From Candidatus Bathyarchaeia archaeon (GTDB lineage: Archaea; Thermoproteota; Bathyarchaeia; Bathyarchaeales; Bathyarchaeaceae): DNA of 64,000 bases. Positions 2,166 through 22,107 of this stretch are shown here, in pieces. The notes under the pieces were generated by a model. The model saw nothing but the letters and a program-made list of their open reading frames with translations. It was not told the origin of the DNA and searched no databases. The position numbers and the translations under genes were made by a program. Every line of letters begins with the position of its first letter. Positions within the stretch are counted from its first letter, which is position 1. The DNA is taken from contig DATETJ010000012.1 in assembly GCA_035283685.1 (NCBI GenBank), forward strand, positions 1-64,000. The letters are read 5' to 3'.

Positions 2166-2396
2166 TCATTTGCTTTCTTCCTTGTCTTCTACCCACCAGA
2201 CCCAAGAATCCGTGGAGCGCTTTCCTTTAATCGTCCCGCGGAGTCTCATCAGGTTCAATACAATTATATTGTCAGACATACAACGCGGAACTCGTTTATG
2301 AACCTCCAGCGACAGTTCCTTCGTGGTCAAGGGTTTTTTCGCTTCCCTTAGGATAGACACAATGAGCGCTGGTCCAACTTTTTTTGATTCACTCAT
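2166..2396 (-). CDS. Small winged-helix-like protein of the thiolase operon
   Basis: The gene codes for 76 residues. The segment LIVSILREAKKPLTTKELSLEVHKRV followed by a basic RLRGTIKGKR and SWVWW turn reads like a winged helix-turn-helix with a short wing. Its ATG overlaps the TGA of the DUF35 gene (ATGA at 2393–2396), so the two are translationally coupled. It may be a DNA-binding regulator of this operon or a small structural subunit. No named family is recognised. Confidence 0.6.
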   Translation of the reverse strand: MSESKKVGPALIVSILREAKKPLTTKELSLEVHKRVPRCMSDNIIVLNLMRLRGTIKGKRSTDSWVWWVEDKEESK

Positions 2397-2983
2397 TTAA
2401 TTCTGTGTCTCTCTTTCAGTGAGTCCAGGAATTTCTTGTCTGATACTTGGAACCACAGGTCGCGCACAGTGTAAAGCGGTTTCTCTGCGAATCGGGGTTC
2501 AACCTTTAAACCGTTGAGTTCAAAGTATCTGCGTTCCTTCATGAGTTTCTCCAGCATCTGTGCGTTTTCAGCTGGGTCTTCTGACAGTTTAACAACTGAT
2601 GACATGACGGTTTTGGCTTCCCCGATCTGAATAAAGCCCAAGATAAACGGTACTTCATCTATGAAGGCTCTTCCAGCAAACGCACAGATCGACGACGTCT
2701 TTATGTGAGCTGGCTGCTTCGTGTAGTCAACCCACTCCATATTCGTTGTCTGACAGTCGGGGCAGAAGGGTCGCGGTGGCAGAAAGACTCCGTGCTCCTT
2801 GCAGCGCGTAGCGTAAATCTTCTTTTTCTCAGCTAAAGCACGGAAATATCGACTATTCTTCCCATACGCCTTAAACTGGTAAGTCGTGTAATCCCGCATC
2901 GAAACAACTAAGTCGTCGTGTCCCATCAAGCGCTTACTGCCAGGCTGCACAATACCTTTAACATTGAGTTTCTTCGTGTCCAT
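2393..2983 (-). CDS. DUF35 OB-fold/zinc-ribbon acyl-CoA-associated protein
   Basis: The product (196 residues) has a rubredoxin-like zinc ribbon (C61, H64, C74, C77 within TRCKEHG…FCPDC) followed by an OB-fold domain (about 85–170). This is the architecture of DUF35 proteins that sit beside thiolases and, in methanogens, bridge acetoacetyl-CoA thiolase and HMG-CoA synthase around a shared CoA site. It starts one base after the thiolase-like gene ends, so a complex with that protein is the natural reading. A decayed partial copy is at 402–655. The second ligand is His rather than Cys, which is unusual. Confidence 0.85.
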   Translation of the reverse strand: MDTKKLNVKGIVQPGSKRLMGHDDLVVSMRDYTTYQFKAYGKNSRYFRALAEKKKIYATRCKEHGVFLPPRPFCPDCQTTNMEWVDYTKQPAHIKTSSICAFAGRAFIDEVPFILGFIQIGEAKTVMSSVVKLSEDPAENAQMLEKLMKERRYFELNGLKVEPRFAEKPLYTVRDLWFQVSDKKFLDSLKERHRIK

Positions 2984-2984
2984 C

Positions 2985-4457
2985 TTAGTTTGGCCTCCTG
3001 ATCAAACCTGACTCCCAACCCGCAAGCGGTTTCATGCGCTCCAAATCGCTCTCAACATTGCTCAGTATCGTGTACGTGACGTGAGAACCCGTGCCAGCGT
3101 GAGAATGCCCTGCGCCTCTCTTAGCATTCGATATCTGAATAGGTCTTGGAACATTACGGTTACCGTTGTATGGTTTGAATTTTTCATTCCACTTCTTGAA
3201 AACCTTGTCAACGTCGCCGCGCAGTTGCAAGTATGTGAAGTAGATTTGCCACACGCCTGATGAACCAACCCCGTGTCCCATGCCGATTAAGCCCCCGCTT
3301 GGGTTTATGGGCACTTCGCCGTCAAGGTCAGCTGCGCCGCTCATTACGAATTCGCCGCCTTTTCCATATGGACACAAGCCTAAATCCTCGTAGGTTTGTA
3401 TCTCAGATGAGCTGAAGGCGTCGTGAATTTCGATGATGTCCAGTTCTTTGAGCGGATTCTTGATGTCTGCCATGTAGTAGGCTTGTTTCGCCGACATTCT
3501 TCCTGCTCTGAACGAGTTTTGCCCAGGATATCTCAACTTCTTGTAGCGTTCCTGCGTTGCCTTATCCTCGTGACGCAGAACCAGGTCATATTTGTGCAAG
3601 CCGCCGACTGTATCGTACCTGTCGCCGGGTCGCATGGTGTCTGTGCCCATGCCTGTTCCGGTGATCCATATCGGCTTGTCCACAAGTTTCTCAGCTGTTT
3701 CCTTTGAAGCCAAGAACACGACGGCGGCTCCATCGGACATGAGGCAGCAGTTTCTCAGCCGTAAAGGCGTAGCACAATAGCCGGATTCAAGGACTTGTTT
3801 AACTGTTATTTCGCCAGTGACGTTTTCTTTGGAATCTTTGACACACCACGGATTAAGCCAGCTTGTCTGCGCAAAAGGATTTGACTGAGCATTCTTTCGG
3901 TTCTTAACCGAGACTTCTGCCATGTGGCGCTCAAAGGTGTCGACTGGTATCTGGAATGTTTTGGCGTATTCCGCAGCCATCGCAGCATAGTAAGCCGTGT
4001 AGTAGCCGCCGTTTGCAAAGTCCCAATCTGTGTCAGAAGCTAACGCGATGTACTCGTTTCCTTCAGCAGTGTCGACTAACGACATTTTCTCGAATCCCAT
4101 AACAGCAACCAAGTCAGCGAGACCCGAGGCTACTAGGGCGTAGCCGTTTTGAACGCCGATGCCGCCTGTTGCTCCTCCTCCTATGGCTCTGTAGCTTCTT
4201 TTTGGGTTGAGTCCAAGTGAATCAGCGATCATTGCTTCGCCCAGCAGTTGCCCTGCAAAATGGTCGCTGAAATAAGAGACAACCAGCGCGTCGATGTATG
4301 CGTTGGAGAAAGGCTTTCCCATCTGTTCGCTGAGGTCTTCGCGCGCCATGTTGTAAGCTTCGACACATTGATCAGTTATGTTGAGATCCGGTCTGGCTTT
4401 CGAATGCGCTATAACTCCGCCACCTATGACCGCAACTTCCCTTGGCTTGAAATTCAT
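2985..4457 (-). CDS. Thiolase-family protein lacking the nucleophilic cysteine
   Basis: This 490-residue protein has the SCP-x/archaeal thiolase fold: GFEKMS (about 121–126), EIHDAFSSSE (343–352) and NPSGGLIGMGHGVGSSG (385–401). Against archaeal acetoacetyl-CoA thiolases without gaps, the nucleophile (RVEAAC) falls on Gly95 in RAIGGGATGG. His345 and His395 are kept. Without the cysteine, ordinary Claisen condensation or thiolysis seems unlikely. It may be a structural or acyl-CoA-binding partner of the DUF35 protein encoded next, or a different C–C enzyme. The start ATG 4457 agrees with the family N-terminus. Confidence 0.85.
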   Translation of the reverse strand: MNFKPREVAVIGGGVIAHSKARPDLNITDQCVEAYNMAREDLSEQMGKPFSNAYIDALVVSYFSDHFAGQLLGEAMIADSLGLNPKRSYRAIGGGATGGIGVQNGYALVASGLADLVAVMGFEKMSLVDTAEGNEYIALASDTDWDFANGGYYTAYYAAMAAEYAKTFQIPVDTFERHMAEVSVKNRKNAQSNPFAQTSWLNPWCVKDSKENVTGEITVKQVLESGYCATPLRLRNCCLMSDGAAVVFLASKETAEKLVDKPIWITGTGMGTDTMRPGDRYDTVGGLHKYDLVLRHEDKATQERYKKLRYPGQNSFRAGRMSAKQAYYMADIKNPLKELDIIEIHDAFSSSEIQTYEDLGLCPYGKGGEFVMSGAADLDGEVPINPSGGLIGMGHGVGSSGVWQIYFTYLQLRGDVDKVFKKWNEKFKPYNGNRNVPRPIQISNAKRGAGHSHAGTGSHVTYTILSNVESDLERMKPLAGWESGLIRRPN

Positions 4458-20904: not shown

Positions 20905-22107
20905 TTAATCACCCCTCCTCAAAATGTGAATGTAAGCTTTTGTGCCAAAGCCTTCCAGCTCCGACGCACATCCATATTTCAGTTCGGTGTCAGTTTTCAC
21001 TTGCCGGTTGCCTGCTTCGCCCTTGAGTTGCTGTACGATCTCATAAATTTGCGCTCCGCCAGTGGCACCAAGCGGATTACCGTCAGCTTTCAATCCACCA
21101 TCTGTGTTTACATAAAGCTCTTGTCCATTGAGTCGGTAGAAGCGTTGCGATTCTCGGAGGCTCTGGGCAATGTCTTGCCAACCCATGCCGTGTTTGGAGA
21201 AGCCCAGGTCTTCAAGCGACACCATCTCGAGAAAAGTAGACTGGTCGTAGAGCTCGGCGATTTGAAGATCACTTAGCGGGATTCCTGCCATTTTGAGAGC
21301 GTTTTTCATAGCTATTGAGCTGGCTGCAAAACCTGTTCTATCATCTCGAGCAGGATACGTGACAAAATCCGTCGCTGAGGCTGAAGCTGCAACACAAATC
21401 GGCTTGTCCGACAGTTGCTTGGCTTTCTCCAAGCTGCCTAGGATTATGGCAGTGGCTCCATCTGATACAGGTGCGAAATCGAACAGTCCTAACGGGCGTT
21501 GCGCTTTCTTTCGCTCTTTGAGTACTGTTTCCACGCTGATTTCACGTTGATATTGTGCATATTCGTTCTGAGTCGCGTTTTTGTGGTTCTTAACTGCGAT
21601 CTGGGCAAGAGCCATGTTGAATGTTTCGAGTTCACCTGCTGAAAGATGGTAGTGTTTAACGTATTCCCGTAGCATGAGTTCATGGTTAGCTTCGGGCGTG
21701 CATCCGGCGTAGTAGCTCCATGGATCTTCCAGAAGCATAAGGTCGTCTCGGATTTTGTCCCATCGGTCTGTCATCTTTTCGACGCCCCCGACTAGGACTA
21801 GGTTGTATCTTCCAGCTTGAATGGCTGTGCAAGCATTGAGTAAGGCTGAACTGAATGAACGTGTTTTCTCCATAGGCATATGGAGCTCAGTGAGCTCAGA
21901 TAAGAAGCCCTCTTCGATCCCGATTTTATTGGTTATTGGAAGAAAATAATCAGCCAAGTATCCGGCGTCTAGATTCTTTCGTTCTAAGCCGGCGGAAACA
22001 GAGGCTTTGAGCCATGCTTCTTCAATGAGTTTCTCAGGCTCGCGCTCGTAGTGTTCACCGAACTTGGTTCTGCCAACACCAATGATGGCTGGACAAGAAT
22101 GTGTCAT
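20905..22107 (-). CDS. Thiolase-family protein with degenerate active site, partner of HMG-CoA synthase
   Basis: This 400-residue protein aligns along its length with archaeal acetoacetyl-CoA thiolase (GVGRTKFGEHY, LVLVGGVEKMTD, APVSDGATA, NPLGATGGAQIYEIVQQLKGEAG). However, the stretch that carries the nucleophile (VEAACASGSLA…) is replaced by RSFSSALLNACTA with about six residues lost. The usual His of the HDCF motif is Tyr287, and the GHP histidine is Asn344. Catalysis by the normal thiolase route looks lost. It may keep a structural or channelling role in a thiolase/DUF35/HMGS complex. Confidence 0.85.
   Translation of the reverse strand: MTHSCPAIIGVGRTKFGEHYEREPEKLIEEAWLKASVSAGLERKNLDAGYLADYFLPITNKIGIEEGFLSELTELHMPMEKTRSFSSALLNACTAIQAGRYNLVLVGGVEKMTDRWDKIRDDLMLLEDPWSYYAGCTPEANHELMLREYVKHYHLSAGELETFNMALAQIAVKNHKNATQNEYAQYQREISVETVLKERKKAQRPLGLFDFAPVSDGATAIILGSLEKAKQLSDKPICVAASASATDFVTYPARDDRTGFAASSIAMKNALKMAGIPLSDLQIAELYDQSTFLEMVSLEDLGFSKHGMGWQDIAQSLRESQRFYRLNGQELYVNTDGGLKADGNPLGATGGAQIYEIVQQLKGEAGNRQVKTDTELKYGCASELEGFGTKAYIHILRRGD

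Follow-up and report, generated by a model that had tools for sequence, protein, structure and literature searches.

The window, by which we mean the whole 64,000-nucleotide stretch of Bathyarchaeia DNA that was analysed, carries on its minus strand a gene for an SCP2-type thiolase homologue and, directly downstream of it as the preliminary description had noted, a gene for a fusion of a DUF35 domain with HMG-CoA synthase (HMGCS), the two open reading frames overlapping by 8 bp (Table 1). The reading frame of the thiolase homologue runs through all 400 codons without interruption. Its product matched the Pfam domains Thiolase_C_1 (5.9e-26) and Thiolase_N (2.4e-9), and the top match of its AlphaFold model, in which the active-site loops have a pLDDT below 50, was 6esq_A (TM 0.81), so that the thiolase fold is indeed retained. 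The thiolase of 6ESQ, an archaeal thiolase/HMGCS complex, was the best PDB relative both by sequence (1.9e-46) and by fold. In the fusion, the N-terminal DUF35 domain (zf-ChsH2) occupies about residues 1-150 and the archaeal HMGCS about residues 165-507, and the catalytic Glu, Cys (EFACKAA), and His (HQPN) of HMGCS are intact in the window protein and in all the sequences aligned with it. The locus thus links the genes of all three components of a thiolase/DUF35/HMGCS complex.

Table 1. Coordinates of the two genes and of the altered active-site segments in the window
Feature	Position	Strand	Basis
SCP2-type thiolase homologue, Cys-less, HMGCS partner, 400 aa	20905..22107	-	ORF and translation, Pfam, AlphaFold model
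DUF35-HMG-CoA synthase fusion, 507 aa	19389..20912	-	domain matches, alignment
Nucleophile-loop remnant, residues 79-90 (MEKTRSFSSALL), Cys and three neighbours deleted	21838..21873	-	alignment with intact thiolases
N141-H142-E143, fixed, replacing canonical L-Y/N-A	21679..21687	-	alignment
YDQS (287-290), canonical HDCF	21238..21249	-	alignment
G343-N344-P345, canonical GHP catalytic-base motif	21073..21081	-	alignment
E383-L-E385, canonical N-x-G of last active-site motif	20953..20961	-	alignment

We then compared the active site with that of intact thiolases. The nucleophile loop has suffered a four-residue deletion that includes the Cys (E88-A-A-C91-A-S-G-G has become R83-S84-F85-S86), and both R83 and the gap are fixed in the alignment of 59 homologues. 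In the HDCF motif, His290 is replaced by Tyr287 (98% of the homologues), and His340 of the GHP motif by Asn344, which is invariant (59/59). The preliminary description had reported alterations at these three sites, and each of them was borne out; its count of three changed catalytic positions turned out to be too low, since about a dozen residues of the site are substituted in concert. The last motif, HN.GG, reads ELEG (N376 to Glu383 and G378 to Glu385), and the positions fixed to new residues among the 59 Cys-less homologues comprise R83, P138, N141, E143, F211, Y287, Q289, S290, N344, E383, and E385, with H142 invariant as well in a set of 21 sequences. None of the 59 proteins has the nucleophilic Cys of the ACASG loop. 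The only Cys near the lost nucleophile, C93, was ruled out as a displaced nucleophile, being out of register, located in the following helix, and not invariant. Judged by its active-site residues, the window protein would fall outside the class of SCP2-type acetoacetyl-CoA thiolases (EC 2.3.1.9). Two sequences depart from these patterns. One Cys-less homologue (L135, 6001-7194) has HDQS where the others have YDQS, so position 287 tolerates His without the Cys, and an HMGCS-operon thiolase with an intact Cys (L267, 1210-2382, genome G067) has GNP in place of GHP, which means that the GHP His can be lost alone.

The Cys-less gene or a fragment of it is present in about 54 of the 61 Bathyarchaeota relatives by our own count, and the protein was also found beside the same fusion in further families of the phylum (L203, L205, and L208-L211), which rules out an oddity confined to one genome. 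The median pairwise dN/dS was 0.074 for the Cys-less gene and 0.068 for HMGCS, and the Cys-less protein is thus under strong purifying selection. With the changes fixed in its homologues at such a dN/dS (about 0.07), the active site has been replaced under selection rather than left to decay, and a frameshift, a pseudogene, or an assembly error is ruled out by the same evidence. In one genome (G003, contig C1) the gene is split into two parts separated by about 260 kb, at 182835-183590 and 441966-442496, reflecting either a rearrangement or an assembly error.

Of the 41 Bathyarchaeota loci whose length allowed a judgement, 38 by our count have the fusion gene directly after the Cys-less gene, and most of these genomes have no other strong match of the archaeal HMGCS type; HMG-CoA reductase was present as a single copy in the genomes checked. 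The protein that lacks the nucleophile and both active-site His residues is tied to a DUF35-HMGCS fusion whose own catalytic site is intact. Weaker HMGCS-like matches with a thiolase of their own occur in a few genomes: in G002, G004, and G055 and at loci L223 (G150) and L224 (G208), a second, divergent HMGCS-like gene lies beside a Cys-intact thiolase (RCASGH), and at L223 DUF35 is fused to the C terminus of the HMGCS-like protein. In G030 and G037, HMGCS, an intact thiolase, and DUF35 are encoded by separate genes and the fusion form is absent.

The same DUF35-HMGCS fusion is found in family f22 (L225-L227) next to a thiolase in which ACASS, HDCF, and GHP are all intact. On a thiolase tree from which the active-site columns had been left out, f22 was sister to the Cys-less clade with support of 100/99, and the HMGCS tree was concordant. 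The Cys-less subunit hence descends from a lineage whose sister retains an intact thiolase beside the same fusion, and the most parsimonious order is that the fusion arose first and the site was lost second.

The loss of the Cys is not unique to this clade. In HMGCS-operon thiolases it is replaced by N in Heimdallarchaeota (L145-L150) and, in Thermoproteota, by G (families f40, f27, and f37), Q (f14 and f32), D (f30, f24, f46, and f39), or E (f25, f52, and f49), the case of L279 (f49) being less clear because a Cys lies one position further on. At least six changes of state are needed on the tree, four of them forced by well-supported branches, a number that several long branches make a rough minimum. 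A single clade of all the Cys-less proteins was rejected (p-AU 0.0007), and a grouping of the fusion clade with the Heimdallarchaeota proteins to the exclusion of f22 was weakly rejected (p-AU 0.033). The independent losses use different residues and have no single origin, and therefore imply no common new chemistry; the other Cys-less lineages moreover retain the HD of the HDCF motif. In f17, f31, f43, and other families of the class, no thiolase adjoins HMGCS, which there often bears a C-terminal DUF35. At L235, L236, L237, and L242 (and L213-L217), HMGCS is fused to a C-terminal DUF35 and the flanks that were read contain no gene for a thiolase; the form at L237 groups with lineages that have a Cys-less thiolase. 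In Thorarchaeota (L161, 3806-6280) we observed a tandem pair of thiolase-fold genes, both Cys-less, one of them with YDPF and GNP.

The preliminary description had placed the true thiolase elsewhere. This fits the genome of the window, where four SCP2-type thiolases are intact and a separate DUF35 gene adjoins each of them, and intact paralogues of this type occur in nearly all the fusion-bearing genomes; in the relative G033 no other thiolase was found. Among the fusion-bearing relatives, a strong PF00108 match was lacking only in G024 (84% complete), G033 (97% complete), and G056, and G056 has a contig-edge fragment of the paralogue with DUF35. In G033, two thiolase domain models matched the Cys-less gene only, with an assembly gap as a possible cause. 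The window itself contains another thiolase homologue that lacks the nucleophile Cys, at 2985-4457 (minus strand; 490 aa, with GGGATGG, HDAF, and GHG; nearest NCBIfam model PRK06365), directly followed by a DUF35-type gene of its own at 2393-2983 (minus strand).

A protein whose catalytic site is gone but whose gene is strictly retained next to that of HMGCS, in a setting where such loss recurs, seems to be needed for something beyond the old chemistry, and the Cys-less subunit is, from its sequence and gene context, likely a working part of an HMGCS complex. The preliminary description had left the choice between a structural or channelling subunit and different chemistry. That choice was well framed, and conservation, the intact sister group, and the recurrent losses favour the first. 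The best explanation, which we hold with moderate confidence, is a subunit dead as a thiolase but kept in a thiolase/DUF35/HMGCS complex for its assembly and shared CoA site. The Cys-less subunit would still join the DUF35 domain and HMGCS in a complex and contribute its part of the CoA-binding interface that they share. HMGCS would thereby be folded, held in place, and able to bind (acetoacetyl-)CoA, and the acetoacetyl-CoA would come from another thiolase, an intact one paired with a DUF35 protein. Two observations count against this explanation: about a dozen concerted, newly fixed residues, several of them charged (R83, H142, E383, and E385), are more than a scaffold needs, and G033 offers no other thiolase to supply acetoacetyl-CoA.

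The same two observations speak for a rebuilt active site with a new CoA-thioester chemistry, for instance an aldol/retro-aldol-type step like that of Ltp2 and Sal, with Tyr287 as the base. Ltp2, Sal, and SLP all have a Tyr at the position of the HDCF His (YDHF, YDCY, and YDCF, respectively), and Tyr302 of Sal and Tyr294 of Ltp2 are the catalytic bases (PMC12329534); the window protein agrees with them at this position, its YDQS being fixed. The second acid, however, is Cys304 in Sal or Tyr344 in Ltp2, and at the essential Cys304 of Sal (the only one of the two positions mapped; His296 in Ltp2) the window protein has Gln289. Its sequence and fold are nearest to the 6ESQ thiolase and not to Ltp2 or Sal, His has returned at position 287 in L135, and the HD kept by the other Cys-less lineages also argues against such a chemistry, which we consider unlikely but a serious contender. 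Somewhat more doubtful is the specific form in which the new site (Tyr287, Arg83, His142, Asn344, and Glu383/385) and the fused HMGCS would together yield HMG-CoA without a separate acetoacetyl-CoA thiolase; were it true, G033 would depend on that site.

Two further possibilities are less likely than a new active site. The Cys-less chain could form a heteromer with an intact paralogue, as CLF does with KS, and so help to build a working acetoacetyl-CoA thiolase. Such paralogues are available in nearly all the fusion genomes, but they are encoded elsewhere with a DUF35 gene of their own, and none was detected in G033, so that we regard this pairing as improbable. That HMGCS itself makes acetoacetyl-CoA from two molecules of acetyl-CoA, rendering any thiolase unnecessary, would suit its KASIII-like fold, its intact site, and the situation in G033, but no sequence feature points to it and intact thiolases persist in nearly all the genomes, which makes it highly improbable.

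Archaeal isoprenoid (membrane lipid) synthesis is taught as beginning with two steps carried out by a thiolase-HMGCS complex, in which acetoacetyl-CoA is handed from one active site to the other. Across a large group of archaea, the thiolase half is, by its residues, dead as a thiolase but no less conserved than HMGCS, and such losses have recurred. If the thiolase-dead subunit is what we propose, assembly would be separable from channelling, and the intact, dead, and absent thiolases would constitute natural variants for testing the purpose of the complex. The annotation "acetyl-CoA acetyltransferase" beside an archaeal HMGCS would often be wrong as to activity. In the open-access literature, which does not include the PNAS article of 2018 describing the complex or the article on Ltp2, we found no previous account of HMGCS-operon thiolases that lack the Cys. 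The assembly itself is already known; what would be new, going by the residues, is an assembly with a thiolase-dead subunit.

The 6ESQ complex has the same three components as the window pair, the fusion matching both its HMGCS and its DUF35 chains, and in it CoA is bound where the three subunits meet (PMC6392133). The window pair differs in that the catalytic Cys and both active-site His residues are absent and HMGCS carries DUF35 as an N-terminal fusion. ST0096 of Sulfolobus tokodaii (PDB 4YZO) resembles the window protein in its SCP2-thiolase fold and in lacking the Cys, with a Ser aligned at the nucleophile position, but, unlike the window protein, it keeps the HD and GHP motifs. The aldolases Ltp2-ChsH2(DUF35) and Sal-Shy(DUF35) (PDB 6OK1 and 9MYR) share with it the thiolase fold, a DUF35 partner, and the Tyr that replaces the HDCF His; they differ from it in the rest of that motif (YDHF or YDCY as opposed to YDQS) and in having a hydratase, not HMGCS, as a partner. 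In PhlABC (PpATase, PDB 5M3K), likewise a thiolase-like and an HMGCS-like protein bridged by DUF35, one partner is dead but needed: the HMGCS-like PhlA lacks the catalytic Cys and Glu and is still required, and only the thiolase-like PhlC is catalytic (PMC6392133). The complex that we propose for the window pair would be the mirror image of this arrangement, with the HMGCS at work and the thiolase-like partner dead.
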